Positions 7,441 through 57,296 of a DNA stretch of 64,000 bases are shown here, in pieces; position 1 is the stretch's first letter, and each line of letters begins with the position of its first letter. Source of the stretch: Mesostigma viride (taxonomy: Eukaryota > Streptophyta > Mesostigmatophyceae > Mesostigmatales > Mesostigmataceae). The stretch spans positions 124,001-188,000 of the forward strand of contig RPFO01000976.1 in NCBI GenBank assembly GCA_009746045.1, in the 5' to 3' direction. The notes beneath the pieces are model-generated. The model made no database searches and was not told the DNA's origin. It saw only the letters and a program-made list of their open reading frames with translations. The position numbers and the translations under genes were made by a program.

Positions 7441-7759
7441 GGCCCCCCGTTATATAGTGGAGCTACGAAACGAGTTGAGACTGTATGGGACACGTGGCAG
7501 TATGACAGTGAAAGTGACAGTGACAGGATAGTTGACAGTTTGGAGTGTTGTGAACCAGCGAATTTGGGGCGCGGTGTTTTGGGAGTGCGTGGCGATGGAT
7601 GCAATATAGTTGGCATCGTCAGAATGCTCGGCATTGTTAAGGGACGTAAGGGAACCATGTACATTGCTCACGCCGGGAAATTGGAATTACTGTAGCTCGG
7701 GGACAAGATCGCACTAGTTGTGCTGTTGTGATAGCATTGTCATCAGCCGTAGGTAATCG
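7441..7759 (+). promoter_or_regulatory. 5' flank / probable 5' leader of gene A
   Basis: About 300 bases conserved before all four gene A copies (also about 44745-45039, 50976-51270 and 57297-57701). It contains GAGCTACGAAACGAGTTGAG and clustered TGACAGTGACAG repeats. A 62-64 codon ORF over it is intact at 44820-45011 and 51051-51242, has an in-frame TAG near 7694, and is frame-shifted at 57.4 kb. I therefore read it as leader or promoter rather than coding. An in-frame TAA lies just before the chosen gene A start. Confidence 0.4.
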
Positions 7760-10700
7760 ATGGCCAACGCCGCTTTCAGAATGAGGAGGTGGACGTTATA
7801 CCTGATATCAATATACTTTGTTGGGCAGGTGAGTGGCCACGGAAAGGTTTCGATGCTTCCTTATTTCTGCATTCTGCATTGACCACTTGAGCGAGTCAGG
7901 ATATTGCTTAGCGCGTAGGGGTTGCAGGATGGCGTTGACGTTGTTGGGAATACGACGTGTGAATTTGTGTTCGTGTGCCTTCTCATACGTGTAGGCGAGC
8001 ACGGTTGTCAGTGTGGACCCGCGGCCAGAATCGTATCATTACGTCGAGCAAGCCTGGCTTTACCAGGGCGATGTCTCGTTGCAGCAGGCCTACGTCCGGG
8101 ATGTGCTGAATTGGTTGGCGCTGTCGCCACCTGACGGCTTCTGCGACAACGTTTATTTGACGGTGAGTTCCTTGTGGCGTTACTCTGCTATGAGCATATG
8201 TTTTTGGAAACGTGATGTTCTGGGCATGGTTGCCGTGTGTTATATTGTGGAAAGATAATAGTTAACTTATTTGGGCTGGTTATTTTTTGCTGGGGGGCCG
8301 GGCCCGTTCTTGCTCTGGTCGCAGATGTTACATCTCGTGTCGTTCCTGCCTCCCATGCCGAGCGGTGGGCAGACTTATGCGGAGGTGCAGCTGGTGAGTC
8401 TTTTGCTCTGTGGATTTCGTGGTGATGTCCACTATGATTTTTGTACTATTAATTGAGTGGAGTGTAGGGTAGGCACCACGCGACCCCCTGGCAGTTGCCA
8501 ACCCACCAAATGATGGACCTGCACGACCCCACTTTGCCCACATGATGGGCTAGTGTGGGGGAAGCCTCCCTCCAAGTTTCAGGCCAATCCAAGCCCGTTT
8601 GCATATTTTAGGACCATGGCTCACCCCTAACAGGAGGCACGTGCTAGCACGCATGAGGGACCATGTCACCCCCTGGCAGCATCCACTCCCTCAAATGATG
8701 GACCTGCACGACCCCACTTTGCCGACATGATGGGATAGTGTGGGGGAAGCCTCCCTCCAAGTTTCAGGCCAATCCAAGCCCGTTTGCATATTTTAGGACC
8801 ATGGCTCACCCCTAACAGGAGGCACGTGCTAGTGCACATGACGGACCATGTCACCCCCTGGCAGCATCCACTCCCTCAAATGATGGACCTGCACGCCCCC
8901 ACTTTGCCCACATGATGGGCTAGTGTGGGGGAAGCCTCCCTCCAAGTTTCAGGCCAATCCAAGCCCGTTTGCATATTTTAGGACCATGGCCCACCCCTAA
9001 CAGGAGGCACGTGCTAGCACGCATGAGGGACCATGTCACCCCCTGGCAGCATCCACTCCCTCAAATGATGGACCTGCACGACCCCACTTTGCCGACATGA
9101 TGGGATAGTGTGGGGGAAGCCTCCCTCCAAGTTTCAGGCCAATCCAAGCCCGTTTGCATATTTTAGGACCATGGCTCACCCCTAACAGGAGGCACGTGCT
9201 AGTGCACATGACGGACCATGTCACCCCCTGGCAGCATCCACTCCCTCAAATGATGGACCTGCACGCCATTATTTGCTTCGTGTTTGCTCTCGTGTTTGTT
9301 GATTGCTTAGCTGGAGGCTGCACGATTTGGCACTGCCAACGAGTTCCTGGTAGCGGCCGCGGCGTGTAACGGGGACCCAGCGCAGTGCCTCGCTCGCACG
9401 CGGTTTCTTGCGGGCATGCTCGAAGCACGGCGACTGCGCCAGGTGTATCAGCTTGAAGATCAACTGTTTGCATCAGAAGACTATTTGGACAGCGTAAGTG
9501 GATGTGTGTGAGGAGATTAACTGTACAGACATTGTTCTTTGGTTGTTGTGTTTCTGGCATGCGTGCGTGGGTGTGGGGGGGGGCAGGCATCCGTGCGTGG
9601 GTGTGGGAGGGGCTGGCATGTGTTCGTGGTGGTGGGGGCTGCCATGCGTTCGTGGGCGTGGGGGGGAGCTGCCATGCATGCATGTGGGTCGGGGCGGGGT
9701 GCCATGAATTCGTGGGTGTGGGTTTAGGGGAGGGCTGGCATGCATGCCTGGGTTCGTGGCGTGGGTTTGTGGGTGGCTGGCATGCGTGCCTGGGTTCGTG
9801 GGGAGTGCCATGCATGCGTGGGTTTGTGGGGGGCTGGCATGCGTGCATGTGGGAGGGGCTGGCATGCGTGCGTGGGTGTGTGGGGTGGCTGGCATGCGTG
9901 CGTGCATGTGGGGGGTGGCTGGCATGCATGTGTGGATTTATGGGAGGGCTGGCATGCATGCGTGGGTTCGTGGGGTGGCTGGCATGCATGCGTGGGTGTG
10001 GGGGGTGGCTGGCATGCATGCGTGCATGTGGGGGGGGGCTGACATGCGTGCGTGGGTTCGTGGGGTGTCGGCCATGCGTGCGTGGGTGTGGGGGGTGGCT
10101 GGCATGCGTGCGTGGGTTTAGGGGGTGGCTGGCATGCATGCCTGGGTTCGTGGGGTGGGCTGGCATCCGTGCGTGGGTGTTGGGGGTGGCTGGCATGCGT
10201 ACGTGGGTGTGGGGGGGGGCTGGCATGCGTGCGTGCGTGTGGGGGGGGGCTGGCATGCATGCGTGGGTTTGTGGGGGGGCTGCCATGCATGCGTGGGTGT
10301 GTGGGGGGTGGCTGGCATGCGTACGTTGGTGAGGGGGGTGGCTGGCATGCATGCGTGCATGTGGGGGGGGGCTGGCATGCGCGTGTGGATTTATGGGAGG
10401 GCTGGCATGCATGCGTGGGTGGGAGGATTACCATTCCAATGATAGCTCTTTACAACATGACAAATGTACAGACACCTTGCGGCGATGGTAAAATTGGTGG
10501 TTAATATTGTAATGCATATCTGTTGGCATCTTTTTTGTGCCCTTTTGGATCTGCAGGCTCAACGTATTGCAAACCTTTTGCAGCATTGGGGGCGTAGGTG
10601 CTTGGAAGGCGATGGGAGTGGTGGAGGTGGACGCGTTGGGAACGCAGCGATTGCGCCCTTGTCTATGTTGCAGCCAAGCATGGGTGTGCCTGTGGCGCAT

Positions 10701-13700
10701 GTAGTAGCGAGCTGGCCACCAGTCATGCGTGCGCAGGGGACGGGTGTGTGGCCACAGCCAAGGGCTGTTCAGGAAGGGCCAGCATCAGCGGGGTGGCAAG
10801 TGCCAAGTGGCGCGGTGTTGGGGCAGGCCACTGCAATGGGGCCAATGGTAATGGGTGGGCAGGCGGGGCAGGGAATTGTGGTGTGGCCACAGGCGGTGAG
10901 CGTGCAGCAAGGGCAGGTGGATGCAGCGAGGCAACCGGCCAACGGCACGGCCTGGGGGCAAACAACAGCGATGGCACAATCGGTTGCGGACGTGCATGCG
11001 GGTGTGGTATGGCCACAAGCAGCGGGTGTGGAGCTTAGGTCGGGGTCATTGGGTACTGGTCCAGGGGGAGCGCAGGCGGCAACGGTGTGGCACCCGGCAA
11101 CTCATACGCAGGCTGGCCAGGCTGCAGTGGAATTTCCACAAGTGGTTGGCGCAGTGGGTGATCAGGCCACAGCAGTGGGTGCGCAGCCATGGCAGGAGCA
11201 TGTGGGCAATACTGTCGGTCTGATGCCTACGGAGTTGGCGCCATCCATGAGTTTGAAGCGCGTTCGTTCCTCGACGGCAAGCACGCCTGTCGTGGGAGCG
11301 AGCACAAGGCGGGCTGATAAGGCAGTGGCTGTGGTTGGTGCGTCATCAACTGCGGCGGGTGCTTCCCAGATCGTGGTGAGTTTATAAAACATTCTGTCAT
11401 GTAGGTGGTGTTGTCATCTTTCGAAATTACGTGACCCCCTCGACTCTGCTGGCAAATATTTTCTATGTCTTCACTAGTGTTGTTTTGATTGATTTGCGAT
11501 TTTTTTAAATTTAATAGCGGTTGTCCTTTTGATGCATTTAACCGTGAATGCCGTATTTGTGTGTGTTTCTGCTGCGATCACTTGTGTGCAGGTGGATGTC
11601 AGTGGATTCACGTCTCCCTTCGAGTATGCTGCCGCTGCAAAGACTGGTCATCCGAATGCTTGGGAGCGCATTGCTCGTGTACAATTTCTTGAGCAGGCGT
11701 TGGAGGACAACTCTGATGAATTCGAGGATGAGGATGTGCGCACTGCTGTAAGTTTGTTGTTCTGTCTTATGTTGTGTGTTTTTGTTTTTGATGGCGGATG
11801 TATGTTGTAGTTGATTTTCCCCTGACAAAAATGTTTGTCATTTTTTTGGTGTGATTATCTTTTGGGTGTTGTTGCGCAGTTGAACGCGCTGAAGCGATAC
11901 TCGGTGGAATCTAAGAAAAGATTTTACCGATTGTCTTTGGACGCACAGCTTCGTCTGCAAGAAAAGAGCCGGGACGCTGGGCATAACGATGCTACGGTGG
12001 TCCCTTGTGGGCACGTTCCTCAACGCGTGGTGGATCAGCGGACACGTAGTGTTGGTGGTACTTCAGCGACGCGGTCAATGGAATCGCTGGGTGTTGCACC
12101 GGCATCAGAGCGTGCTCCACTAAGGCGTGAACCCGTTGGAAAAGGACAGTCGGGCTCGGGTGGACAGGCCAGAGATGATGTGCGTGAATGTGTGCTGGGC
12201 GATTCCAGCAAGGTCGCTGCTGCAGTGGAGGTGCAAGGGTCCGTTGATAAAAGGGCGCGACATGAAGTATCTGGGAGTGATGGACATGATGCAGCTGGCC
12301 TTCGCCCTGGACCTCAGGTTTGTATGCTTGATTGATTTGGGGGGGCGGGCTGCATTTCAAAACCTTATTTTTTACATGTGTGGTTTGTATGGTTGCCTTT
12401 TTTTGGTGTTGCATTTCTTATGTGTGTTCAGATATTGTATTGAGAAGAGTATGACTCGCTGTGATTTATTGTATGACTGCAGGTGTGCTTGCGGCGCTTT
12501 AAGTCTGGTGATGAGTACGTGAACTTTGCGAGCACTTCATCTCGGAGTCGGATCATGGCTGAAGATGAGAAGATTGCGCTCTTTGACTCGCTGTTGGCAG
12601 AACTTCAGAGTGGTGGACGCTCTTTCGAGGATGCTGTAAGTGATTTTTGGCAAGTAAAATATTTCTTGGAATGTCTGCATTTTATGGTCTGCTGTGGGAA
12701 AGTACATTTTACGACTGTCCGTCTGGTTTCAATTCTATTGCATATGTCCCTACCTCTTCCCTGTTCAACCCCAGGCGAAGAAACTCGAGCGGATGCTAGA
12801 CAAGCGCTGTAACAAGCTCATTTCACAAGCGGCTCAGGCGGATGTTGCGGTGGTATGTCATTATTGCGCTTTCTTTCTTTTTTTTTTTTCCAAGTTCCAC
12901 TTTTTCGATGCATGCATTAAAATAATTATAATAGTAATTGAACTATTTTTGTCATTTTTTCTTTTCTGTTCTTGTTTGTCAATCCTACGCAGGTGCGCGG
13001 TGCCATTTAATGGTCCTGGGGCTTACGAGCAGCTCGCTCAAGGTTTTTGTCGTGACACGTCATCATGCGTTTCAGACCGTTTGGACAACCTGCGCGTGCT
13101 TGTCAACCAAGTTGCACGTGACGAGCGGCTTTCACTGCCAGAGAAGCGATCCTTGGTAAGATTTGGTTTTATTATGTTACTTTGAGGTGGAGCATGCGGC
13201 ATGGGTGTAAACCGTGGCATGCAGGCCAGGCAGCCACCTGCATGTCACATGATAAGTGGATGGATGGAAAGGAAGGGCACTGGAGGGACGCAGCCAGGCA
13301 GGGGGGCGGGCACGCGATAGGCGGGCAGGCGGGCAGGCAGGAGGCAAGGAACATGTCTTACAAGGTTCATGCGCGCACGCCTGTGCCACAAGTTGTGCGC
13401 CGGAGATCTTCCTGCTGCCCAGGTGGGTGGGACATGGGTACGGGCCCCACCCTTGGCTGCGTTTCTCGCTAGCGACGGTGCTCTGCTGCATGCATTAGGG
13501 GGGCGCTGCCATGCGTGCGTGGGTGTGGGGGGGGGCTGGCATGCGTACGTTGGTGAGGGGGGGGCTGGCATGCGTGCGTTGGTGAGGGGGGGGCTGGCAT
13601 GCATGCGTGGGTGTGGGGGTGGCTGGCATGCCTTCGTGGGTGTGGTGGGGAGCTGCCATGCATGCGTGGGTTTATGGGGGCGCTGGCATGCGTGCGTGGG

Positions 13701-15416
13701 TTCGTGGGGTGGCTGCCATGCGTGCGTGGGTGTCGGGGGTGGCTGGCATGCGTACGTTGGTGAGTGGGTTGGCTGGCATGCATCACCGTGTATTTTAGCA
13801 GCTAAAGTATGGACATGGCGTGAAAGATGATCATGGCTAAGCCTATGTTCATTACGTTAATATTCATTGAGTGGCAATCCTTTGCACATTCACAATTGTA
13901 TGGGCATAATTGTATGGGAATTTATTTTGTATTAAGTGATTTCTCCGTGACAACCATCAAGTGCAGCGGCCGTAGTGCGCATGACTGGCATAGCGACCTC
14001 GGCTGTCGCCATTTCTGTGCGGGGGGGAGGTCAGCACAGGCAATCGGGTAAAAGGGCAAGCTGAGCAGACTGCGATATACCATGCATTGAAAGTCCATGA
14101 CACTGTAGTAGGGCACGAGAGGCAGGGGATCTTGCAAGGGTATGCAGCACATGTAGGCTGGCGGGCGAGCAGAAAGGGGCAGTGAGAAGGCGTGAGAAAC
14201 TAGTTGAGGGTGCAAACTAGCAAGCGGGGACTCGGGTAAGCGATGAGGTGCGATAAGGTGTGTCACTGTCGGGGGAGCTGGCATGCGTGCGTGGGTTCGT
14301 GGGGGTGCTGGCATGCATGCGTGGGTGTGGCGGGAAGCTGCCATGCAGGCATGTGGGGCGGGGTGGGCTGCCATGCATGCGTGGGTGTTGGGGGGGGACG
14401 GCATGCATTCGTGGGTGTGGTGGGGAGCTGCCACGCATGCGTGGGTTTAGGGGGGGGCTGGCATGCGTGCCTGGGTTCGTGGGGTGGCTGCCATGCGTGC
14501 GTGGTGCGTGGGTGGGTGGGGGGGGCTTCCATGCATGCGTGGGTTGGCGTGGGGGTTGGCAAGGTGCGTGGGTGCCAAAATTTCCTGCACCACCCGTGTG
14601 GTGCGAAAGCTATGCCAAAAGTTTTCTGAACCACCCTTGTGGCGCGGGAGCTATGCACCACCCTTGTGGCGCGTGAGCTATGCCAAAACTTTCTTCACTG
14701 CCCTTGTGGCGCGGAAGCTATGCCTAAATTTTCTGCACCACCCTTGTGGCGCGGAAGCTATGCCAAGAATTTTCTGCACCACCCTTGTGGCGCGGGAGCT
14801 ATGCCAAAATTTTCTGCACCACCCTTGGGGCGCGTAAGCTATGCCAAAACTTTCTTCACTGCCCTTGTATCGCGGAAGCTCTGCCAAAATTTTCTGCGCT
14901 ATCCTTGTGGCGCGGGAGCTATGCCAAAATTTTCTTCGCTACCCTTGTGGCGCGGGAGTGATGCCAAGGCCCATGCTGCTGGGTTACCGTTTTGCACTCT
15001 CTAAGAAGAAATAGTGATTGAGTTTAGTTTGGTTGTATAAAATTGGTACAATTTGTTGTCTCTTTTTTCATTCAGTAGTAGTGTATAATCTATTTATTAC
15101 GATGTCTGTTCTTTGTTTGCAATTTTCGCTCTGTGGACCTGTATGTTTTCTTCTTTTTTGGGGGGAATTGCAGGTGAGAAAGTTCATGTGCCTGAGCAAT
15201 GAGCTGAAGGCAGAACAAAACAACGACGATGCAGTCATGAACGATGTCGCGGACGAAAGTGCCGCTGATGCGTCGGCAGCCGCAGCTGTAGAACACCTGG
15301 AGTTGAAGAAGACTCACGTACGTGCGGGTAAGCGGGGGGTAACCCCTGCTGTCATTGTCCGTCAACCTGGAATGATGCAGAGTCACCAATCCACGGATGC
15401 AGGTGTAGTGTTCTAA
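7760..15416 (+). CDS. gene A: 11-exon gene, 832-codon protein of unknown function
   Basis: Exons: 7760-7828, 7995-8162, 8325-8393, 9311-9493, 10557-11375, 11592-11747, 11880-12317, 12483-12635, 12775-12852, 13033-13155, 15174-15416. Every exon is a multiple of three and every intron is phase 0 GT-AG. The start is the first ATG after an in-frame TAA. Residues 1-23 (MANAAFRMRRWTLYLI...) have a short hydrophobic end. Residues 24-163 are globular-looking (ESYHYVEQAWLYQGD; LNWLALSPPDGFCDN; TRFLAGMLEARRLRQVYQL). Residues 164-436 (exon 5) are Gly/Ala/Gln/Val-rich with degenerate repeats built on VWPQ near residues 227, 272 and 314, then a basic patch (LKRVRSS, about 397). Exon 6 ends acidic (EDNSDEFEDED). 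Exons 7-10 look helical and charged (SVESKKRFYRLSLDAQLRLQ; AKKLERMLDKRCNKL). Exon 11 has an Asp/Ala-rich stretch. A nuclear protein is a guess. For exon 10 the earlier acceptor at 12992 gives an immediate stop, so 13032 (or 13029) is preferred. No homologous family is recognised. Confidence 0.7.
8506..9257. repeat. 185-bp tandem repeat in gene A intron 3
   Basis: The phrase CAAATGATGGACCTGCAC recurs at 8507, 8692, 8877, 9062 and 9247, exactly 185 bases apart. Units 2 and 4 (after 8691 and 9061) match each other better than their neighbours (GCCGACATGATGGGATAG versus GCCCACATGATGGGCTAG), giving a 370-bp higher-order dimer. It shares CAAGTTTCAGGCCAAT with the 191-bp repeat at 45.5 and 58.2 kb. 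Confidence 0.95.
9555..10425. repeat. GGCATGCGTGCGTGGGTG minisatellite in gene A intron 4
   Basis: About 29-35 bp units built as GGCTGGCATGCGTGCGTGGG plus TGTGGGGG. Each unit combines an alternating purine-pyrimidine stretch (GCATGCGTGCGTG) with a G-run. Long frames rich in His-Ala-Cys-Val-Gly or Pro-Thr-His-Ala on the two strands are artefacts of the repeat. Flanked by exon 4 (ends 9493) and exon 5 (starts 10557). Confidence 0.95.
13497..13785. repeat. GGCATGCGTG minisatellite, gene A intron 10 (first block)
   Basis: About nine units of the intron 4 minisatellite. Preceded by about 300 bases (13156-13496) of intron with G/C-rich GGGCGGGCAGGCAGG sequence and no gene. Ends near TGGCATGCATCACC. 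Confidence 0.92.
13786..14267. other. intron 10 interior, no gene seen
   Basis: Unique AT-richer DNA between two minisatellite blocks. ORFs on both strands are short and unconvincing. No splice-flanked exon in the gene A reading frame is visible. Confidence 0.5.
14268..14570. repeat. GGCATGCGTG minisatellite, gene A intron 10 (second block)
   Basis: About nine units, including the variants TGCCATGCAGGCATGTGGGGC and GCGTGGTGCGTGGGTGGG, abutting the 40-bp repeat downstream. Confidence 0.9.
14581..14985. repeat. 40-bp tandem repeat in gene A intron 10
   Basis: Core CCCTTGTGGCGCGGGAGC followed by TATGCCAAAATTTTCTGCAC. Units begin at 14593, 14634, 14661, 14701, 14741, 14782, 14822, 14862, 14902 and 14942, spaced 40-41 bp except one 27-bp unit. 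A unit variant with ACTTTCTTCACTG recurs 160 bp apart (about 14688 and 14848), which suggests a four-unit higher-order period. It is not a CRISPR: there are no unique spacers and it is eukaryotic intronic DNA. Confidence 0.95.
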
Positions 15417-15466
15417 CGTCCACGCGTTGGGGGCAGGCTCGAGCAAGCTGCACAACAGGTGAATGC

Positions 15467-15691
15467 GTGGTAGCACGTCGTACGAACCGTGAATCGAATG
15501 TAGCTTTTCCCTCGCCGACTGTAGAGAAGACGAAAACAGAGCTCGCTCACCGCGCGCGGCGTGCTCGCACAGCACCATTTCACAGTTACGTAACAAACTG
15601 TCGTCATCCCCCATTTCAAATCGAGAATCTGCACGCAAAAGATGCAGCACACACAGTTGGCTTCAGGATACAATGCTTTCCTCAACCCTGA
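15467..15691 (+). CDS. possible coding segment just 3' of gene A
   Basis: An open frame of 74 codons (from GTG) with protein-like composition, VEKTKTELAHRARRARTAPF and PPFQIENLHAKDAAH, ending at TGA. It starts 50 bases after the gene A stop and has no ATG of its own. CAG dinucleotide contexts near 15436 and 15459 could act as acceptors. It may therefore be an alternative last exon of gene A, or 3' UTR that happens to be open. A 186-codon antisense ORF (15090-15650) overlaps gene A exon 11 and is rejected. Confidence 0.25.
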   Translation: MVARRTNRESNVAFPSPTVEKTKTELAHRARRARTAPFHSYVTNCRHPPFQIENLHAKDAAHTVGFRIQCFPQP

Positions 15692-15818
15692 TCGGGAAGT
15701 CTTTATGAAAAAAGCCGACCGACGTTAGATAGCAAACGCAATGTAGTCATACAAGCAATTGACAACTGCCTGAGACAGTCCGTCAACTACACTTGCATCG
15801 GTTCGTGTCCTTTGTTAC

Positions 15819-16103
15819 TTGCTCCTTCCCCTTGCCGGCGTTCCCGACGGAAGCCATTTGCGGCACACCACTAGACGAAGCCAGGCGACAATGCCCCAGA
15901 AAATGTACGCCTCGAAGTGCCGGTCGACCGCCAGTCCAAACGGTTTTATACCCACCACACCACCGTCAGTCACCTCGGACAACGTAGTTTCTCATGAACA
16001 AGGTCATTACCAAAATGACGTAGCTTCTCATGAACAAGGACATTACCAAAAAATTATCGACAACCTGCTAAGGCAGTCCCATCAGCCGCAGCTTACCAGG
16101 TAA
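15819..16103 (+). CDS. possible short ORF with internal 12-residue repeat
   Basis: Open frame of about 94 codons, with first ATG at about 15891 (MPQKMYASKCR). It contains a 36-nt tandem duplication (15984-16055) encoding VSHEQGHYQND then ASHEQGHYQKI. The two copies differ at a few bases and keep SHEQGHYQ. It ends in TAA at 16103. It is not recognised and has no splice evidence. It could be a fragment of a gene cut by unit 3, which begins about 170 bases downstream. Confidence 0.25.
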   Translation: MLLPLAGVPDGSHLRHTTRRSQATMPQKMYASKCRSTASPNGFIPTTPPSVTSDNVVSHEQGHYQNDVASHEQGHYQKIIDNLLRQSHQPQLTR

Positions 16104-16226
16104 CGTGCGTGTGTGCAACTCGCCCGTTGAAACTCATGAACGCTATGGCAGGCTTATGGTTGTAAATTTGGAACAAATTCTGTGGACAGATTTTATCCGG
16201 TATTCGTATGTCTTTTCTCACGTGTT

Positions 16227-16276
16227 GTAGTTAGTTAGCTAGTTAGTTAGTTAGCTAGTTAGTTAGTTAGTGTTAG
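16227..16276. repeat. short (TTAG)n array with GCTA variants
   Basis: TTAGTTAGCTAGTTAGTTAG-type tetranucleotides at the exact border between the unique DNA 3' of gene A and macrosatellite unit 3. It is a simple repeat marking a junction. It is not a canonical telomere sequence. Confidence 0.9.
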
Positions 16277-18600
16277 TGCTGAATTCAGCCGAAGGCGCGC
16301 AATTTTGCGGAAGAGTAGACGAACCGTACCAAAATTTAGTACGATTAAATTCCCATGCAATTTTCGTGCCGAACGTGTTCAGACGGGGAGCGTGGCAAAA
16401 AACGGCTCGAAACTCTGAAAAGCAGGGGGCTCAGCCCAAAAAACGGCCGTACGTAACCGAAATTTTCTGGCTCCCGCTGGCCCCCCCGCCTCGGCGCCCT
16501 CGGCCACTGCCCCTTCGCACTGCGCACCCCGCGTGGCGCCGGCGTTCCCGAGGACGCACCCCGCGGGTGTACGCGCCAATCGCCCGCTCAGGCGCCAAAA
16601 AGTCCGGGCCCCGAAGGGGCCCCCAACTTGTCAACTACTATATTACGATCGTGTTGCGCAAGGGAGAAACCCGAACAACCTGACATCGCCGCGGGCGCCG
16701 TACCGTACGGCCTGATCGCACCCCCACGAACGCCTACTATTCCTGAAATCCTGCGGAGCCGCCAGTAACGGCCCGTAACCGTGGGCCTGAACGTCGTCAC
16801 ACCCGCGTAAGATCGAGTGTCACCAATCCTGAACAGAAACTGACGTCAGCTCAATTCAGCAAAATGCGCGAGAAATTGCGGGGGGCATATACGGCTGGGG
16901 GGAAGAGTTTGCGCTGGGGGTTTTCGACCAAAATATCCTAGTTGATTTACTAAGGGTTCAGACTGAACGGGAAATTTCGAGTGTTCAGACTGAACGAAAA
17001 TTTAGTTCGAACACAATTCTGAACGGTTTTTTTGTTAAATTTTCGGTTCGGCCTACTTCCCACGCAATTTTCGTGCCAATTTTTGCGAGATGACACAACT
17101 GAACGTGTTCAGACGTGGAGCGTGGAAAAAAACGGCTCGAAACTGTGAAAAGCAGGGGGCTCCGCATAAAAAACGGCCGTACGAAACATAAATTTTTGGG
17201 CTCCCGCTGGCCCCCCCACCTCCGACCCTGAAGAAAATAAGGACTTGAGGTATTCAGGCTGGGGAAAGTTGGACCGGTCGAACCGTACCAAATTTTAGTT
17301 CGCATGCAGGGCGGGGCGAGCGTCGCGTCGAACGCACCAGGCTGGGCAGTGGCAATGGGTGAAGTGAACGTGAATAACAAAAGCGGCATGGTCGGGGCAA
17401 AAAATTTTAATGAAACAAAGCGACGTGCTGCGGAAGCAACCATAGTTGTTGCTGGATGGCGATGGCGGGCGACGTAGCATGTGAAATCGGGATGGGGAAT
17501 GAGAATTCATGGCTTTCAAAATTTTGTATTGGAAGAGTACGTAGGAAACTTTCTGAGCTGGCGGGGCGTCAACCCCGTGCAACCTGCGTGGGAGAGGTCC
17601 GTGTCGCTATGGCATTTGCTGTATAATAGCCAGCGACCTGGAAATTGAACGTCGTCATCAGATTGTTTTGTTTCAGTGTCGTCATTCTTCAGTTTTACGT
17701 ATTTCACGCCTTGTAAAATCAGTTTTGCTGTTCATGGAAGACGTGGGATGGGGCAAACGAATGTCTGGTGTCACCATAGACAGTTGCGATTGAGCGCTGG
17801 ATTGCTTGGCACGGGACGAACGCTGGCGCTGGCAATTTGTGTCAAAGATGTGGTCAATGTATCTGCTTTTATCAAATGTGATTTACGTTTACCGTAATCT
17901 TATGCAATTTCCTTTTTTCCAGACGAATTTTCTTGGTCGCAGCGTGCACATACCGGACCAAGAGTCTGTCTTCCATTGTCGTATCCGTGGGGTGCGTCCT
18001 CTTCATTCTCCTTGGGAATGTCATCGCCACGTTATCCGTGTTGCTTTCTTCTGGAACAGGCTGGGCAGGGAAAGCCCATGATTGCTCATGGATGATTTCT
18101 CATGCACCAATTTTGGGAGTCGTTGACTGCTGTGCTTCCTGACGTTGATGGTGGTTTTGCGTGTGATAAGCTGCCTTGCTTTGCACGTGAGTTTTCACTG
18201 GGCTATATGGGTGAAGGTGAGCAACTAGGGGTGTGTCATGCTGTGCTATATTGCTTCCATCCAGCATATCCAAAGTTAGACTTGCTCTAATGGCTGTGCA
18301 ATATTTGTGTTGTGCAGATTTTTACTGGGCTGAAGCCAAATTCACGCATGGGTAGACAGTTTGCTGCACGTGAATTTTGACTGGGCTGTACGTGCAGGTG
18401 GGCAACCATGTGTTGTGCCATATTTTTCTACATGGATTCATCATACTTGCTGTCAAACGTAGGCCCCATTCGCTTGCACACTGAATTTTGCTTTGCTGGC
18501 TGTGTAATTTTGATGTCTCATTGTGCAGGCGTGCCCGCTACCTGATCAACCAGGTGTGCTTTGCATTGTGCCAGCGGGGCCATGTTTGTTTCCTTTGCAC
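16276..18600 (+). repeat. macrosatellite unit 3 (5'-truncated)
   Basis: Enters the unit just before cassette 1 (16371) and lacks the (CAGC)n array, ORF C and spacer. It then continues through the GC block, GTTCAG motifs, cassette 2 (17099) and ORF B (17923-18142). From about 16470 it is nearly identical, at an offset of about 5.4 kb, to unit 4. It also matches the part of unit 9 after 39720. Confidence 0.9.
17923..18142 (+). CDS. ORF B copy 2
   Basis: Same 72-codon frame and acceptor as copy 1. Differs by silent changes (ACA for ACG, CTT for CTG, ATC for ATT), and the protein is identical. Confidence 0.42.
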
Positions 18601-19039
18601 GTGTAGACAGGCAGGCTGGCAGGGGACATGGGGTAGAGGCTTAGGGCGTGGGGTATGTGGAATGGGTCAGGCAGCCAGCCAGCCAGCCAGCCAGCCAGCA
18701 AGGCAGCCACATGCACGAGATGTGATTATTGGCAAGCCAGCCAGCGGGGGCACCACAGGGAGGAGGGCATGGGGACAGGGGGAAGGGGGGAGGGGGCGGG
18801 GGGCAGGGTCCAGGCGGCAGGGGGCAGGGGGAGCCTTTCTGAAGCTATGAGTCACAGGTCATGGGGACTGGGGCATGGGGCAGGCCCTCAGCCACCTGCA
18901 CGTGATGTGGTCAGAGGCAAGACACAAGCAAGGGCACAGTGGGCAGGTGGGACGGGGCAGGGGACCTGGGGCACGAGCCATGAAACTTGGGGACATGGGG
19001 CACGAGGCTTGGGGCGTGGGGTATGTGGCATGGGTCAGG

Positions 19040-19250
<211 letters not shown>

Positions 19251-19284
19251 GCAGCCACATGCACGAGATGTGATTATTGGCAAG

Positions 19285-21657
19285 CCAGCCAGCGGGGGCA
19301 CCACAGGGAGGGGACAGGGGGAAGGGGGAGGGGGCGGGGGGCAGGGTACAGTCGGCAGGGGGCAGGGGGAGCCTTTCTGAAGCTATGAGTCACAGGTCGT
19401 GGGGACTGGGGCATGGGGCAGGCCCTCAGCCACCTGCACGTGATGTGGTCAGAGGCAAGTCACAAGCAGGGGCACAGTGGGCAGGTGGGACGGGGCAGGG
19501 GACCTGGGGCACGAGCCATGAAACTTGGGGCATGGGGAGTGGGGCGTTGGGCAGGCAGGTAGGGGTGGTACACACGCACATGCCCTGCCATGCCCTGCGA
19601 TCCCGCAAAAGGGCACCGTGGGGTCTTGTGGGTTGTCACACGTTGTTATGGGGTGCATATTTGCAGGGACATGAAGATGGGTGACCGCGCCGTAACCGAG
19701 ACGTGTGTGGTGGCAACATGCCGCCTGGATACCAGCTGGCCTTGCTTCGTTAGCTACATTTATGGCTGCATGTGATGGCGTGCCCTTCCCGTTGTCACAG
19801 TGGTCACAGTGATGGCCTGTGGTTGCCCCATACTGGTGGTGGTTATAAAGAAGTTAGCGAATACAAAACTTTCTTTCTTAAGGTGATTTTGAAGTGGGCA
19901 TGAGCGATCGTGCACATGCTAACATTTGATGGCCATTCCATGGTGAAGTTGGGAATTGGATGGGATTGTTTGATAAAGATGCGGTGGTGTGTCTTAAAAT
20001 GAGCTGTGCTAATCTCATTATGAAGTGCTCAAGACAACTCATTATAATAAATCAGAGTTGGAACAAACATTGTCTGCATCATGCCCCAACTTGAACTCTA
20101 CATGAAGTGTGACACCTATGCTACGTGTGTTGCGGGCTAGCTGTGTCAGCAAACAATTTTAGCTTTTAGCCCTCAAATCGTGTCCAACTCGCGCCTCACA
20201 ATAAGAGCCAGTTGCACCTAGCATGGTAATGTCCACAAACTAACCTAAAACAGTTTAGTGTCCATACTGGGACCAAAGCACACTCATATAGGGACTTTGG
20301 TCTGGCAGGCCCCCAGCGGCTTGGCCGGCCAGGGTGGCATATTGTGACCTGGCCTGGCCCCAAGGGCATTCCCAAAAGGGTAGGGAAACATGCCACGAAC
20401 TACACCCAGATGTTGCTGGATGACCTACTCATCCCAGCCATAACTCATAAAAAATGCCTACAATATTTGGCCAGCCAGCGGGGGCACCACAGGGAGGGGA
20501 CAGGGGGAAGGGGGGAGGGGGCGGGGGGCAGGGTACAGTCGGCAGGGGGCAGGGGGAGCCTTTCTGAAGCTATGAGTCACAGGTCGTGGGGACTGGGGCA
20601 TGGGGCAGGCCCTCAGCCACCTGCACGTGATGTGGTCAGAGGCAAGTCACAAGCAGGGGCACAGTGGGCAGGTGGGACGGGGCAGGGGACCTGGGGCACG
20701 AGCCATGAAACTTGGGGCATGGGGAGTGGGGCGTTGGGCAGGCAGGTAGGGGTGGTACACACGCACATGCCCTGCCATGCCCTGCGATCCCGCAAAAGGG
20801 CACCGTGGGGTCTTGTGGGTTGTCACACGTTGTTATGGGGTGCATATTTGCAGGGACATGAAGATGGGTGACCGCGCCGTAACCGAGACGTGTGTGGTGG
20901 CAACATGCCGCCTGGATACCAGCTGGCCTTGCTTCGTTAGCTACATTTATGGCTGCATGTGATGGCGTGCCCTTCCCGTTGTCACAGTGGTCACAGTGAT
21001 GGCCTGTGGTTGCCCCATACTGGTGGTGGTTATAAAGAAGTTAGCGAATACAAAACTTTCTTTCTTAAGGTGATTTTGAAGTGGGCATGAGCGATCGTGC
21101 ACATGCTAACATTTGATGGCCATTCCATGGTGAAGTTGGGAATTGGATGGGATTGTTTGATAAAGATGCGGTGGTGTGTCTTAAAATGAGCTGTGCTAAT
21201 CTCATTATGAAGTGCTCAAGACAACTCATTATAATAAATCAGAGTTGGAACAAACATTGTCTGCATCATGCCCCAACTTGAACTCTACATGAAGTGTGAC
21301 ACCTATGCTACGTGTGTTGCGGGCTAGCTGTGTCAGCAAACAATTTTAGCTTTTAGCCCTCAAATCGTGTCCAACTCGCGCCTCACAATAAGAGCCAGTT
21401 GCACCTAGCATGGTAATGTCCACAAACTAACCTAAAACAGTTTAGTGTCCATACTGGGACCAAAGCACACTCATATAGGGACTTTGGTCTGGCAGGCCCC
21501 CAGCGGCTTGGCCGGCCAGGGTGGCATATTGTGACCTGGCCTGGCCCCAAGGGCATTCCCAAAAGGGTAGGGAAACATGCCACGAACTACACCCAGATGT
21601 TGCTGGATGACCTACTCATCCCAGCCATAACTCATAAAAAATGCCTACAATATTTGG
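19285..21657 (+). repeat. 1.19-kb direct tandem duplication
   Basis: 19285-20470 is repeated as 20471-21657, shifted 1186-1187 bases. The one-base change is in a G-run. The junction joins CTACAATATTTGG (spacer end) directly to CCAGCCAGCGGGGGCACC (start of the post-array flank). The sharing of GG/CCAG suggests short-homology recombination. The copies look identical otherwise. Confidence 0.95.
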
Positions 21658-23324
21658 AACGAATCCATGCATCGATGCTCCTACACCAATCAGTTTTCTG
21701 CACCGCCATAGCCTCGAATTTGCATGTACGTAATTATTTCGTCCCAGTGGACCTTAAGCGAGATGACTTGCCTGAACGTGTTCAGACGGGGAGTGTGCCA
21801 GGAAACGGCTCGAAGCTGGGAAAAGCAGGGGGCTCCGCCTGCGGACGGGCCGTACGAAGCCGAAATTTTATGGCTCCCGCTGGCCCCCCCGCCTCGGCGC
21901 CCTCGGCCACTGCCCCTTCGCGCTGCGCGCCCCGCGTGGCGCCGGCGTTCCCGAGGACGCACCCCGCGGGTGTACGCGCCAATCGCCCGCTCAGGCGCCA
22001 AAAAGTCCGGGCCCCGAAGGGGCCCCCAACTTGTCAACTACTATATTACGATCGTGTTGCGCAAGGGAGAAACCCGAACAACCTGACATCGCCGCGGGCG
22101 CCGTACCGTACGGCCTGATCGCACCCCCACGAACGCCTACTATTCCTGAAATCCTGCGGAGCCGCCAGTAACGGCCCGTAACCGTGGGCCTGAACGTCGT
22201 CACACCCGCGTAAGATCGAGTGTCACCAATCCTGAACAGAAACTGACGTCAGCTCAATTCAGCAAAATGCGCGAGAAATTGCGGGGGGCATATACGGCTG
22301 GGGGAAGAGTTTGCGCTGGGGGTTTTCGACCAAAATATCCTAGTTGATTTACTAAGGGTTCAGACTGAACGGGAAATTTCGAGTGTTCAGACTGAACGAA
22401 AATTTAGTTCGAACACAATTCTGAACGGTTTTTTTGTTAAATTTTCGGTTCGGCCTACTTCCCACGCAATTTTCGTGCCAATTTTTGCGAGATGACACAA
22501 CTGAACGTGTTCAGACGTGGAGCGTGGAAAAAAACGGCTCGAAACTGTGAAAAGCAGGGGGCTCCGCATAAAAAACGGCCGTACGAAACATAAATTTTTG
22601 GGCTCCCGCTGGCCCCCCCACCTCCGACCCTGAAGAAAATAAGGACTTGAGGTATTCAGGCTGGGGAAAGTTGGACCGGTCGAACCGTACCAAATTTTAG
22701 TTCGCATGCAGGGCGGGGCGAGCGTCGCGTCGAACGCACCAGGCTGGGCAGTGGCAATGGGTGAAGTGAACGTGAATAACAAAAGCGGCATGGTCGGGGC
22801 AAAAAATTTTAATGAAACAAAGCGACGTGCTGCGGAAGCAACCATAGTTGTTGCTGGATGGCGATGGCGGGCGACGTAGCATGTGAAATCGGGATGGGGA
22901 ATGAGAATTCATGGCTTTCAAAATTTTGTATTGGAAGAGTACGTAGGAAACTTTCTGAGCTGGCGGGGCGTCAACCCCGTGCAACCTGCGTGGGAGAGGT
23001 CCGTGTCGCTATGGCATTTGCTGTATAATAGCCAGCGACCTGGAAATTGAACGTCGTCATCAGATTGTTTTGTTTCAGTGTCGTCATTCTTCAGTTTTAC
23101 GTATTTCACGCCTTGTAAAATCAGTTTTGCTGTTCATGGAAGACGTGGGATGGGGCAAACGAATGTCTGGTGTCACCATAGACAGTTGCGATTGAGCGCT
23201 GGATTGCTTGGCACGGGACGAACGCTGGCGCTGGCAATTTGTGTCAAAGATGTGGTCAATGTATCTGCTTTTATCAAATGTGATTTACGTTTACCGTAAT
23301 CTTATGCAATTTCCTTTTTTCCAG

Positions 23325-23544
23325 ACGAATTTTCTTGGTCGCAGCGTGCACATACCGGACCAAGAGTCTGTCTTCCATTGTCGTATCCGTGGGGTGCGTC
23401 CTCTTCATTCTCCTTGGGAATGTCATCGCCACGTTATCCGTGTTGCTTTCTTCTGGAACAGGCTGGGCAGGGAAAGCCCATGATTGCTCATGGATGATTT
23501 CTCATGCACCAATTTTGGGAGTCGTTGACTGCTGTGCTTCCTGA
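23325..23544 (+). CDS. ORF B copy 3
   Basis: Same sequence as copy 2 over the ORF, part of the 4-kb near-duplicate of units 3-4. Confidence 0.42.
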
Positions 23545-24441
23545 CGTTGATGGTGGTTTTGCGTGTGATAAGCTGCCTTGCTTTGCACGTGAGTTTTCAC
23601 TGGGCTATATGGGTGAAGGTGAGCAACTAGGGGTGTGTCATGCTGTGCTATATTGCTTCCATCCAGCATATCCAAAGTTAGACTTGCTCTAATGGCTGTG
23701 CAATATTTGTGTTGTGCAGATTTTTACTGGGCTGAAGCCAAATTCACGCATGGGTAGACAGTTTGCTGCACGTGAATTTTGACTGGGCTGTACGTGCAGG
23801 TGGGCAACCATGTGTTGTGCCATATTTTTCTACATGGATTCATCATACTTGCTGTCAAACGTAGGCCCCATTCGCTTGCACACTGAATTTTGCTTTGCTG
23901 GCTGTGTAATTTTGATGTCTCATTGTGCAGGCGTGCCCGCTACCTGATCAACCAGGTGTGCTTTGCATTGTGCCAGCGGGGCCATGTTTGTTTCCTTTGC
24001 ACGTGTAGACAGGCAGGCTGGCAGGGGACATGGGGTAGAGGCTTAGGGCGTGGGGTATGTGGAATGGGTCAGGCAGCCAGCCAGCCAGCCAGCCAGCCAG
24101 CAAGGCAGCCACATGCACGAGATGTGATTATTGGCAAGCCAGCCAGCGGGGGCACCACAGGGAGGAGGGCATGGGGACAGGGGGAAGGGGGGAGGGGGCG
24201 GGGGGCAGGGTCCAGGCGGCAGGGGGCAGGGGGAGCCTTTCTGAAGCTATGAGTCACAGGTCATGGGGACTGGGGCATGGGGCAGGCCCTCAGCCACCTG
24301 CACGTGATGTGGTCAGAGGCAAGACACAAGCAAGGGCACAGTGGGCAGGTGGGACGGGGCAGGGGACCTGGGGCACGAGCCATGAAACTTGGGGACATGG
24401 GGCACGAGGCTTGGGGCGTGGGGTATGTGGCATGGGTCAGG

Positions 24442-24640
<199 letters not shown>

Positions 24641-27505
24641 GGCAGCCACATGCACGAGATGTGATTATTGGCAAGCCAGCCAGCGGGGGCACCACAGGGA
24701 GGGGACAGGGGGAAGGGGGAGGGGGCGGGGGGCAGGGTACAGTCGGCAGGGGGCAGGGGGAGCCTTTCTGAAGCTATGAGTCACAGGTCGTGGGGACTGG
24801 GGCATGGGGCAGGCCCTCAGCCACCTGCACGTGATGTGGTCAGAGGCAAGTCACAAGCAGGGGCACAGTGGGCAGGTGGGACGGGGCAGGGGACCTGGGG
24901 CACGAGCCATGAAACTTGGGGCATGGGGAGTGGGGCGTTGGGCAGGCAGGTAGGGGTGGTACACACGCACATGCCCTGCCATGCCCTGCGATCCCGCAAA
25001 AGGGCACCGTGGGGTCTTGTGGGTTGTCACACGTTGTTATGGGGTGCATATTTGCAGGGACATGAAGATGGGTGACCGCGCCGTAACCGAGACGTGTGTG
25101 GTGGCAACATGCCGCCTGGATACCAGCTGGCCTTGCTTCGTTAGCTACATTTATGGCTGCATGTGATGGCGTGCCCTTCCCGTTGTCACAGTGGTCACAG
25201 TGATGGCCTGTGGTTGCCCCATACTGGTGGTGGTTATAAAGAAGTTAGCGAATACAAAACTTTCTTTCTTAAGGTGATTTTGAAGTGGGCATGAGCGATC
25301 GTGCACATGCTAACATTTGATGGCCATTCCATGGTGAAGTTGGGAATTGGATGGGATTGTTTGATAAAGATGCGGTGGTGTGTCTTAAAATGAGCTGTGC
25401 TAATCTCATTATGAAGTGCTCAAGACAACTCATTATAATAAATCAGAGTTGGAACAAACATTGTCTGCATCATGCCCCAACTTGAACTCTACATGAAGTG
25501 TGACACCTATGCTACGTGTGTTGCGGGCTAGCTGTGTCAGCAAACAATTTTAGCTTTTAGCCCTCAAATCGTGTCCAACTCGCGCCTCACAATAAGAGCC
25601 AGTTGCACCTAGCATGGTAATGTCCACAAACTAACCTAAAACAGTTTAGTGTCCATACTGGGACCAAAGCACACTCATATAGGGACTTTGGTCTGGCAGG
25701 CCCCCAGCGGCTTGGCCGGCCAGGGTGGCATATTGTGACCTGGCCTGGCCCCAAGGGCATTCCCAAAAGGGTAGGGAAACATGCCACGAACTACACCCAG
25801 ATGTTGCTGGATGACCTACTCATCCCAGCCATAACTCATAAAAAATGCCTACAATATTTGGAACGAATCCATGCATCGATGCTCCTACACCAATCAGTTT
25901 TCTGCACCGCCATAGCCTCGAATTTGCATGTACGTAATTATTTCGTCCCAGTGGACCTTAAGCGAGATGACTTGCCTGAACGTGTTCAGACGGGGAGTGT
26001 GCCAGGAAACGGCTCGAAGCTGGGAAAAGCAGGGGGCTCCGCCTGCGGACGGGCCGTACGAAGCCGAAATTTTATGGCTCCCGCTGGCCCCCCCGCGTCG
26101 GCGCCCTCGGCCACTGCCCCTTCGCGCTGCGCGCCCCGTGTGGCGCCGGCGTTCCCGAGGACGCACCCCGCGGGTGTACGCGCCAATCGCCCGCTCAGGC
26201 GCCAAAAAGTCCGGGCCCCGAAGGGGCCCCCAACTTGTCAACTACTATATTACGATCGTGTTGCGCAAGGGAGAAACCCGAACATCCTGACATCGCCGCG
26301 GGCGCCGTACCGTACGGCCTGATCGCACCCCCACGACGCCATATCCTGAAATCCTGCGGAGCCGCGAGTAACGGCCCGTAACCGTGGCCTGAACGTCGTC
26401 ACACCCGCTAAGATCGAGTGTCACCATCTGAACAGAAACTGACGTCAGCTCAATTCAGCAAAATGCGCGAGAAATTGCGGGGGCATATACGGCTGGGGGA
26501 AGAGTTTGCGCTGGTTTCGACCAAATATCCTAGTTGATTTACTAAGGGTTCAGACTGAACGGGAAATTTCGAGTGTTCAGACTGAACGAAAATTTAGTTC
26601 GAACACATTCTGAACGGTTTTTTTAATTTTCGGTTCGGCCTACTTCCCACGCAATTTCCGTGCCAATTTTTGCGAGATGACAACTGAACGTGTTCAGACG
26701 GGAGCGTGGAAAAAAACGGCTCGAAACTGTGAAAAGCAGGGGGCTCCGCATAAAAAACGGCCGTACGAAACATAAATTTTGGGCTCCCGCTGGCCCCCCC
26801 ACCTCCGACCCTGAAGAAAATACGGACTTGAAGTATTCAGGCTGGGGAAAGTTGGACCGGTCGAACCGTACCAAATTTTAGTTCGCATGCAGGGCGGGGC
26901 GAGCGTCGCGTCGAACGCACCAGGCTGGGCAGTGGCAATGGGTAAAGTGAACGTGAATAACAAAAGCGGCATGGTCGGGGCAAAAAATTTTAATGAAACA
27001 AAGCGACGTGCTGCGGAAGCAACCATAGTTGTTGCTGGATGGCGATGGCGGGCGACGTAGCATGTGAAATCGGGATGGGGAATGCGAATTCATGGCTTTC
27101 AAAATTTTGTATTGGAAGAGTACGTAGGAAACTTTCTGAGCTGGCGGGGCGTCAACCCCGTGCAACCTGCGTGGGAGAGGTCCGTGTCGCTATGGCATTT
27201 GCTGTATAATAGCCAGCGACCTGGAAATTGAACGTCGTCATCAGATTGTTTTGTTTCAGTGTCGTCATTCTTCAGTTTTACGTATTTCACGCCTTGTAAA
27301 ATCAGTTTTGCTGTTCATGGAAGACGTGGGATGGGGCAAACGAATGTCTGGTGTCACCATAGACAGTTGCGATTGAGCGCTGGATTGCTTGGCACGGGAC
27401 GAACGCTGGCGCTGGCGATTTGTGTCAAAGATGTGGTCAATGTATCTGCTTTTATCTAATGTGATTTACGTTTACCGTAATCTTATGCAATTTCCTTTTT
27501 TCCAG

Positions 27506-27725
27506 ACGAATTTTCTTGGTCGCAGCGTGCACATACCGGACCAAGAGTCTGTCTTCCATTGTCGTATCCGTGGGGTGCGTCCTCTTCATTCTCCTTGGGA
27601 ATGTCATTGCCACGTTATCCGTGTTGCTTTCTTCTGGAACAGGCTGGGCAGGGAAAGCCCATGATTGCTCATGGATGATTTCTCATGCACCAATTTTGGG
27701 AGTCGTTGACTGCTGTGCTTCCTGA
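27506..27725 (+). CDS. ORF B copy 4
   Basis: Same protein as copy 1. ATT retained where copies 2 and 3 have ATC (silent). Confidence 0.42.
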
Positions 27726-28620
27726 CGTTGATGGTGGTTTTGCGTGTGATAAGCTGCCTTGCTTTGCACGTGAGTTTTCACTGGGCTATATGGGTGAAGG
27801 TGAGCAACTAGGGGTGTGTCATGCTGTGCTATATTGCTTCCATCCAGCATATCCAAAGTTAGACTTGCTCTAATGGCTGTGCAATATTTGTGTTGTGCAG
27901 ATTTTTACTGGGCTGAAGCCAAATTCACGCATGGGTAGACAGTTTGCTGCACGTGAATTTTTACTGGGCTGTACGTGCAGGTGGGCAACCATGTGTTGTG
28001 CCATATTTTTCTACATGGATTCATCATACTTGCTGTCAAACGTAGGCCCCATTCGCTTGCACACTGAATTTTGCTTTGCTGGCTGTGTAATTTTGATGTC
28101 TCATTGTGCAGGCGTGCCCGCTACCTGATCAACCAGGTGTGCTTTGCATTGTGCCAGCGGGGCCATGTTTGTTTCCTTTGCACGTGTAGACAGGCAGGCT
28201 GGCAGGGGACATGGGGCAGAGGCTTGGGCGTGGGGTATGTGGCATGGGTCAGGCAGCCAGCCAGCCAGCCAGCCAGCCAGCAAGGCAGCCACATGCACGA
28301 GATGTGATTATTGGCAAGCCAGCCAGCGGGGGCACCACAGGGAGGAGGGCATGGGGACAGGGGGAAGGGGGAGGGGGCGGGGGGCAGGGTCCAGGCGGCA
28401 GGGGGCAGGGGGAGCCTTTCTGAAGCTATGAGTCACAGGTCATGGGGACTGGGGCATGGGGCAGGCCCTCAGCCACCTGCACGTGATGTGGTCAGAGGCA
28501 AGACACAAGCAAGGGCACAGTGGGCAGGTGGGACGGGGCAGGGGACCTGGGGCACGAGCCATGAAACTTGGGGACATGGGGCACGAGGCTTGGGGCGTGG
28601 GGTATGTGGCATGGGTCAGG

Positions 28621-28742
<122 letters not shown>

Positions 28743-31634: not shown

Positions 31635-31854
31635 ACGAATTTTCTTGGTCGCAGCGTGCACATACCGGACGAAGAGTCTGTCTTCCATTGTCGTATCCGT
31701 GGGGTGCGTCCTCTTCATTCTCCTTGGGAATGTCATTGCCACGTTATCCGTGTTGCTTTCTTCTGGAACAGGCTGGGCAGGGAAAGCCCATGATTGCTCA
31801 TGGATGATTTCTCATGCACCGATTTTGGGAGTCGTTGACTGCTGTGCTTCCTGA
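31635..31854 (+). CDS. ORF B copy 5
   Basis: Two further silent changes relative to copy 4 (ACG for ACC; CCG for CCA). The downstream exon-like frame changes Glu to Gly in the same copy, so constraint appears limited to this frame. Confidence 0.42.
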
Positions 31855-32754
31855 CGTTGATGGTGGTTTTGCGTGTGATAAGCTGCCTTGCTTTGCACGT
31901 GGGTTTTCACTGGGCTATATGGGTGAAGGTGAGCAACTAGGGGTGTGTCATGCTGTGCTATATTGCTTCCATCCAGCATATCCAAAGTTAGACTTGCTCT
32001 AATGGCTGTGCAATATTTGTGTTGTGCAGATTTTTACTGGGCTGAAGCCAAATTCACGCATGGGTAGACAGTTTGCTGCACGTGAATTTTTACTGGGCTG
32101 TACGTGCAGGTGGGCAACCATGTGTTGTGCCATATTTTTCTACATGGATTCATCATACTTGCTGTCAAACGTAGGCCCCATTGGCTTGCACACTGAATTT
32201 TGCTTTGCTGACTGTGTAATTTTGATGTCTCATTCTGCAGGCGTGCCCGCTACCTGATCAACCAGGTGTGCTTTGCATTGTGCCAGCGGGGCCATGTTTG
32301 TTTCCTTTGCACGTGTAGACAGGCAGGCTGGCAGGGGACATGGGGCACGAGGCTTGGGGTTTGGGGTATGTGGCATGGGTCAGGCAGCCAGCCAGCCAGC
32401 CAGCCCGCCAGCCAGCCAGCCAGCAAGGCAGCCACATGCACGAGATGTGATTATTGGCAAGCCAGCCAGCGGGGGCACCACAGAGGAGGGTATGGGGACA
32501 GGGGGAAGGGGGAGGGGGCGGGGGGCAGGGTCCAGGCGGCAGGGGGCAGGGGGAGCCTTTCTGAAGCTATGAGTCACAGGTCATGGGGACTGGGGCATGG
32601 GGCAGGCCCTCAGCCACCTGCACGTGATGTGGTCAGAGGCAAGACACAAGCAAGGGCACAGTGGGCAGGTGGGACGGGGCAGGGGACCTGGGGCACGAGC
32701 CATGAAACTTGGGACATGGGGCACGAGGCTTGGGGCGTGGGGTATGTGGCATGG

Positions 32755-32906
<152 letters not shown>

Positions 32907-41619: not shown

Positions 41620-44744
<3,125 letters not shown>

Positions 44745-47357: not shown

Positions 47358-47530
47358 TCGCAGATGTTACATCTGGTGTCGTTCCTGCCTCCCATGCCGA
47401 ACGGTGGGCAGACTTCTGCGGAGGTGCAGCTGGTGAGTCTTTCGCTCTGTGGCTCTCGTGGTGATGTCCACTATGATTTGTATACTATTAATTGAGTGGA
47501 GGGTAGGGTAGGATCTGTGCACACGTTAAT

Positions 47531-48150: not shown

Positions 48151-50975
<2,825 letters not shown>

Positions 50976-54380: not shown

Positions 54381-57296
<2,916 letters not shown>

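Follow-up and report, generated by a model that had tools for sequence, protein, structure and literature searches.

A probable internally deleted Helitron with a modular N-terminal region in a macrosatellite of Mesostigma viride

The 64,000-nucleotide stretch of the Mesostigma viride genome analysed here (the window; positions 124001–188000 of contig RPFO01000976.1, called C723 below, a contig of 190000 nucleotides) carries an eleven-exon block that had been described, from its letters alone, as an 832-codon gene with ten introns embedded in a macrosatellite. Comparison with relatives in the 440 Mb and 2243 contigs of the genome, which are named here by contig, leads us to another account, and we put at about 0.85 the probability of the following reading: the block (positions 7450 to ~16271) derives from a large Helitron by internal deletion, is not autonomous, and lies in an array of its own 5′ fragments. 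The window copy would keep the first eleven exons of a RepHel transposase gene, which code for an extended N-terminal region made up of linkers and small modules of two exons each, and would have lost a cysteine-containing exon 12, the Rep nuclease and the PIF1 helicase, with exon 11 joined directly to an element end region. What looked like a one-of-a-kind gene with many introns would thereby become part of a transposon and a false gene call would be avoided; the locus would also provide a case of Helitron 5′ fragments building a macrosatellite in which just one end segment occurs, and of a transposase whose front half apparently expanded through the duplication of exon pairs.

Relatives of the eleven exons and their coding status

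The identity of the block is provided by a colinear relative on C777, in which exon 11 runs on to a phase-0 donor and is followed by exon 12 and then by the exons of Rep and the helicase. Downstream of exon 11 this gene encodes a Helitron_like_N domain (PF14214, expectation value E 2.9e-28), which supplies the Rep (HUH) nuclease, and then a C-terminal PIF1-type helicase (PF05970, E 9.4e-45), both in the order of the Helitron RepHel transposase; in the window, the block is followed by array. The Rep–helicase product of C777 includes the stretches GLPHAHIIF and YLNKYINKG, which we take to be an HUH-like and a two-tyrosine-like motif, respectively, and exon 12 encodes a CxxC...CC pattern whose best Pfam match, C1_1 (E 0.054), falls below that family's cut-off. 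Because exon 11 of this relative continues into Rep and PIF1, the eleven exons are identified as encoding the N-terminus of a RepHel protein of Helitron type. None of the 55 listed genome matches to the Rep domain, and none of the 46 listed for exon 12, lies on C723. About 7 kb from the start of C777 the helicase frame switches once without an obvious intron, and the C777 relative's own gene may likewise not be intact.

The same arrangement recurs beyond C777. On C777, C253 and C854 and at two loci of C1448, N-terminal exons are followed on their own strand by exon-12 or Rep matches, and on C1752 by an exon-12 match. When the protein of exons 8–11 from C253 was compared with the genome, 50 matches were obtained at E up to 1, including eleven weak ones (E 0.033–0.83) on C74, C381, C1407, C1448 (two), C481, C244, C1324, C1, C1513 and C1673. 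Each of the eleven is followed, 0.6–2.6 kb downstream and on the same strand, by a divergent exon-12 match, positions being taken from two listings compared by eye; ten fit the exon-8 part and one, on C1324, fits the part of exons 10–11, and the remaining matches in that E range belong to the close family or lie on C998 and C125. Since every one of the eleven precedes exon 12, the N-terminal region belongs to the RepHel genes of several related families.

Taken by itself, the N-terminal region gave no meaningful match (best E 0.21 in Pfam, 0.023 in NCBIfam and 0.31 in PDB). The sequence-only reading, which had found no known family for the product, was thus right as far as Pfam and PDB matches of the 832 residues go, but misleading, because the gene of the relatives runs into Rep and PIF1. 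It differs from the Helitron RepHel transposase in its N-terminal region of eleven exons with repeated two-exon modules and no family match, and the window copy differs further in having neither Rep nor helicase. Helitron2 elements are named in Chlamydomonas, with nothing on such modules in the passages of that source (PMC8226300), and the wider literature, as far as its listings, abstract openings and passages show, describes no such modules in Helitrons. A scan of viral contigs with two short patterns (138 stretches) confirmed no relative, and a 201-base DNA search of phages gave no match.

A genome search with the 832 residues returned at least 79 matches, a lower bound obtained with 54 of 451 candidates scored, and stretches of C777, C1448, C253 and C1424 were compared with the window exons one by one. 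All eleven exons are present on C777, with 98.6–100% identity over the aligned part including 30-bp flanks (exon 11 aligning only across its first 181 of 303 bases, flanks included); C1448 also has all eleven, and C253 has eight, exons 4–11, together with a short piece of the flank of exon 3. Splice sites are common to these three relatives. Where exon lengths differ among C777, C1448 and C253 they stay divisible by three (819, 780 and 864 in exon 5; 438, 417 and 486 in exon 7; 153 or 147 in exon 8), a check that leaves aside exon 11, whose end is not mappable from the window copy, whereas introns 5–9 differ in length irrespective of multiples of three. With all compared exons taken together, the ratio of nonsynonymous to synonymous divergence (dN/dS) comes to 0.58, 0.52 and 0.53 for the three pairs, with wide variation in single exons, such as 1.96 in exon 6 on eight changes. 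Because exon lengths keep to multiples of three while intron lengths do not, and because the overall dN/dS is 0.52–0.58, the comparison indicates that the eleven-exon block is real coding sequence. Divergence is uneven, being low in exons 1–6 and high from exon 7 onward in the pairs with C777, as if pieces had been exchanged between copies. The stretch of C1424 was aligned over exons 6–8, and with stops in exons 6 and 7 and a broken exon 8 this locus is a decayed copy.

The break in exon 11 and the segment beyond it

The exon model of the sequence-only reading was reproduced exactly, with eleven exon lengths divisible by three, 832 codons and a stop, and GT..AG borders at all ten introns. This arithmetic stands, but an intact gene does not follow from it. 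In C777, C1448 and C253 the acceptor of exon 10 lies at 12993, where the intron is still in phase 0, and exon 10 accordingly spans 12993–13155 rather than starting at 13033. In the window copy a frame-shifting length difference soon after 12993 leads to an in-frame stop near 13008; position 13033 follows an internal AG inside exon 10, and the start placed there was a frame-keeping choice that bypasses this stop. The length difference may be either a genuine mutation or a mistake of the assembly. Exon 11 is represented by its 5′ part only (15174–15324), as identity with the C777 copy ends at about 15325 and the breakpoint falls at 15321–15325. DNA from 15321 onward recurs without exon 11, at 100% identity on C1021 and 98% on C1324, and for this reason the last ~92 coding bases of the 832-codon model (~30 residues), together with its stop at 15416, are foreign DNA. 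The frameshift in exon 10 and the truncation in exon 11 indicate that the window gene copy is not intact.

The foreign segment, 15321–16271 on the forward strand, is probably the end region of a related Helitron fused to the cut exon 11, with which it shares a short overlap at the junction (15321–15324), and the stop codon of the 832-codon model lies within it. The segment recurs on C1021 and C1324 and in part on C1673, C3, C1457 and C1724. On C1673, C3 and C1324 the segment or parts of it follow Rep on the same strand at a distance of 16–19 kb, and on C1021 it follows an exon-4 match at about 4 kb. The 5′ part of the window copy is certain; from the position of the segment relative to Rep on C1673, C3 and C1324 we infer that it would correspond to the 3′ end region of the element. 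Because the DNA past the break behaves like the end region of related elements, the block looks internally deleted, and the fusion of an element end region to a truncated exon 11 would be the simplest reading of the junction.

Modules, intron phases and competing explanations

Within the N-terminal region, exon 1 (7760–7828), conserved in C777 and C1448, is followed by a series of exon pairs. Exons 2 (7995–8162) and 3 (8325–8393) form the two halves of module 1; exon 4 (9311–9493) and exon 5 (10557–11375), which also carries a long linker, form module 2; exon 6 (11592–11747) and exon 7 (11880–12317), again with a linker, form module 3; and exons 8 (12483–12635) and 9 (12775–12852) form module 4. 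All are on the forward strand and are placed by the recomputed model and the relatives, exons 4 and 6 also by the module comparison and exon 8 by the search with exons 8–11. The product of exon 1 has a hydrophobic, signal-peptide-like stretch that is kept in C777 and C1448.

The five intron-split modules were first chosen by eye and then tested statistically, and since they had been picked beforehand the shuffle and site figures are optimistic. In pairwise comparison, shuffled sequences scored as well in 2/500 cases for modules 3 and 4, 7/500 for modules 2 and 3, and 22/500 for modules 2 and 4. The best pair in profile–profile comparison was likewise modules 3 and 4 (probability 7.8%, E 0.0045), and when two modules were combined in a profile and compared with the third, shuffles did as well in 0–1/500 cases for module 3 (from modules 2 and 4), 1–4/500 for module 2 (from modules 3 and 4) and, in one of two members tested, 0/500 for module 4 (from modules 2 and 3). 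When similarity was anchored on the within-module intron (8 residues before it to 16 after), random site sets did as well in 2/4000 cases and jittered ones in 3/2000 for modules 2–4, in 3/4000 and 9/2000 for modules 2–5, and in 32/4000 and 6/2000 for modules 1–5; three other window sizes were weaker throughout (19–289/4000 random, 7–100/2000 jittered). Together these comparisons indicate that modules 2, 3 and 4 are related and that the phase-0 intron within each has the same position. As repeat members, modules 1 and 5 failed by sequence, in shuffles and in profiles alike, and their place in the series is an assumption on our part. The earlier suggestion of an exon-modular protein therefore holds for modules 2–4, whose internal introns coincide, and finds no sequence support in modules 1 and 5. 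The modules would most likely act as an accessory part of the transposase that binds DNA or protein.

Proteins can grow by duplicating symmetric (phase 0–0) exons. Modules 2–4 resemble such growth in carrying an intron at the same place, and depart from it in that the repeated unit is two exons inside a transposase gene and modules 1 and 5 are unproven members. Since modules 2–4 are related and split alike, tandem duplication of a two-exon module bounded by phase-0 introns could explain part of the phase-0 run for which this locus was originally singled out; it would account for the phases of modules 2–4, not by itself for the rest.

The run itself needs to be restated. All eleven N-terminal introns (1–11) are in phase 0, including the ten of the original model, for which all-phase-0 had been claimed; along the whole gene, the 16 introns that could be read from both sides comprise 14 in phase 0 and two in phase 2, so that the claim becomes one of about 14/16. 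Fourteen of these phases are firm (introns 1–11, one intron in Rep and one in the helicase, all phase 0, and intron 12, phase 2), and two were chosen among open frames, namely intron 13 (phase 2) and an intron beside a 42-nt linking exon (phase 0). A further phase-2 acceptor lies at the entry to Rep, its donor not found. Ten of ten introns in phase 0 at even odds would have a chance of about one in a thousand, by simple arithmetic. An excess of phase 0 is, however, general in eukaryotes and found in nearly all genomes, according to the passages of one survey (PMC3488318), and it is a serious possibility, if one we rate below an even chance, that the run simply reflects the phase-0 background of the gene or genome with no duplication of modules. 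Introns of the non-duplicated Rep and helicase exons, which are among the about 14/16 in phase 0, fit such a background; that modules 2–4 resemble one another in sequence and in the place of their introns more than the shuffled and jittered controls do speaks against it.

A broader scenario, which we offer tentatively and at slightly worse than even odds, would be that a green-algal Helitron lineage grew a modular N-terminus by two-exon phase-0 duplication, that this N-terminus is shared across RepHel families ~43–50% alike in exon 12, that some of the elements measure more than 30 kb between inverted end pieces, and that their 5′ end seeds macrosatellites by rolling-circle amplification.

Several points weigh against our interpretation of the block. 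On the side of the modules, pairwise shuffles scored as well in 76/500 cases for modules 4 and 5, 230/500 for modules 2 and 5, 281/500 for modules 3 and 5, and 286–481/500 for any pair with module 1; profile shuffles did as well in 126–343/500 cases for module 1 and 99–182/500 for module 5; and against the profile of modules 2 and 3, one of the two module-4 members was equalled by 60/500 shuffles. Phase 0 prevails in the Rep–helicase half too, so that an overall preference for this phase may have as much explanatory power as duplication. On the side of the element, a signal-peptide-like exon 1 would be odd for a nuclear transposase, the end segment is also found on C1021, C1457 and C1724 with no Rep among the matches listed there, and Helitron termini (5′-TC, and 3′-CTRR with a hairpin) and target sites (A–T, entered without target duplication) are not established. 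An inverted repeat at the far ends, of the kind described next, is to our knowledge not a canonical Helitron feature, and neither the window nor any of the ten stretches of C777, C253, C1448, C1424 and C723 that were searched showed an inverted copy of the ~190-bp piece concerned.

This piece, part of the end segment (16015–16211), occurs at 78–80% identity and inverted 7–9 kb upstream of exon 12 on C1673, C3 and C1324, where inverted copies thus flank about 32–35 kb containing RepHel (C1673:31.6–66.0 kb, C3:16.5–51.7 kb and C1324:942.7–975.1 kb); this placement supports the view that the segment occupies an end of the element. C1457 has an inverted pair ~11.6 kb apart (2399.6–2411.2 kb) with no Rep among the matches listed, and C920 a single piece. 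It is possible that these pieces are long inverted terminal repeats on Helitron-type elements. Such pairs would also suit a mobile unit that is a larger, inverted-repeat-bounded element carrying RepHel, with the window block as its deletion product; we consider this unlikely, as the repeat is just 78–80% like the window piece and the searched stretches of the close family hold no inverted copy.

A captured host gene is a little less likely still. In that case exons 1–11 would be cargo rather than the transposase's own N-terminus, and Helitron capture of host fragments is on record in the passages of one account (PMC12628747); N-terminal copies with no nearby exon-12 match, on C998 (1917–1923 kb) and C1424 (188–197 kb), would also suit it. 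The C1424 copy is the decayed one, however, and on C998 exon 5 is split between frames, as decay would produce, though exon 6 is open there; moreover, exon 11 leads into exon 12 in phase 0, in the same arrangement at several loci, and the eleven matches to exons 8–11 precede exon 12 in divergent RepHel families as well.

Phase-selective intron gain, for instance by introner elements, was the unusual mechanism raised by the sequence-only reading, and eleven of eleven N-terminal introns in phase 0 would suit it. We regard it as very improbable: introner-type gain calls for similar introns and target duplications, yet only one of 45 intron pairs (introns 4 and 10) is alike, through a 30-bp minisatellite only, flanking direct repeats reach at most 3 nt, and introns 12 and 13 read as phase 2. 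That this locus alone holds such a gene, working and undamaged with its 832 residues, as an open frame in the original model allowed, has next to no probability: the acceptor of exon 10 would have to be one that the relatives do not share, the C-terminus would have to come from DNA also present at other sites where the gene is absent, and close copies exist on other contigs.

The surrounding array and its repeats

The region upstream of exon 1 (7450–7759, forward strand) is the 5′ upstream part of the Helitron gene block and is common to three further copies in the window; in self-BLAST, 7452/7460–8243 is paired with 44747–45518, 50978–51749 and 57412–58195. Past the block, a tandem array of ~4.2-kb units resumes on the same strand (16367–33133, by self-BLAST). 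The 5′ fragment copies, all on the forward strand, lie at 45040–47783 (exon 1, 45040–45108; exon 2, 45270–45437; exon 3, 47364–47432; exon 4, 47601–47783), at 51271–54012 (exon 1, 51271–51339; exon 2, 51501–51668; exon 3, 53593–53661; exon 4, 53830–54012) and at 57702–58114 (exon 1, 57702–57770; exon 2, 57947–58114). Exons 1 and 2 are hence present four times in the window, exons 3 and 4 three times, and exons 5–11 and the segment 15321–16271 once each. The statement that the 5′ exons had been copied at least three times into the array is borne out for exons 1 and 2, with three extra copies, while exons 3 and 4 have only two.

The array thus combines four 5′ fragments with one end segment in the window. 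In plants, arrays of truncated Helitrons, many of them combining several 5′ ends with only one 3′ end, have been described and rolling-circle replication invoked, as far as the passages of one account go (PMC12628747). The array in the window would resemble these in its fragments and single end segment, and differs in its host, a green alga; the rbcL of this genome is of the green type, and its best PDB match is 1gk8, a Chlamydomonas entry. If the same process operated here, rolling-circle replication would have multiplied truncated Helitron templates, and their insertion in tandem would have given rise to the extra 5′ fragments in the macrosatellite. The original account of truncated-Helitron tandem arrays with many 5′ ends and one 3′ end is reportedly that of Xiong et al. 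(2016). The RepHel gene of C777 is likewise preceded by such an array (C777:28.5–38 kb), with a spacing of 733 bp and built from the array unit.

Two adjacent 6.2-kb units of the window (43949–50182 and 50180–56412) are 99.92% identical in self-BLAST, which would point either to tandem duplication in the very recent past or to a duplication introduced by the assembly. Tandem Repeats Finder places further repeats, on the forward strand, within three introns of the block: a 185-bp satellite of 4.1 copies (8507–9265) in intron 3 (8394–9310), a 30-bp minisatellite (9554–10421) in intron 4 (9494–10556), and 30-bp and 40-bp minisatellites (13498–14967) in intron 10 (13156–15173). Satellites akin to those of introns 3, 4 and 10 occur in and around the C777 element. 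Elsewhere in the genome, C1107:650000–1310000 holds a one-strand cluster of kinase-domain matches, most of them in open frames of 1039–1265 codons.

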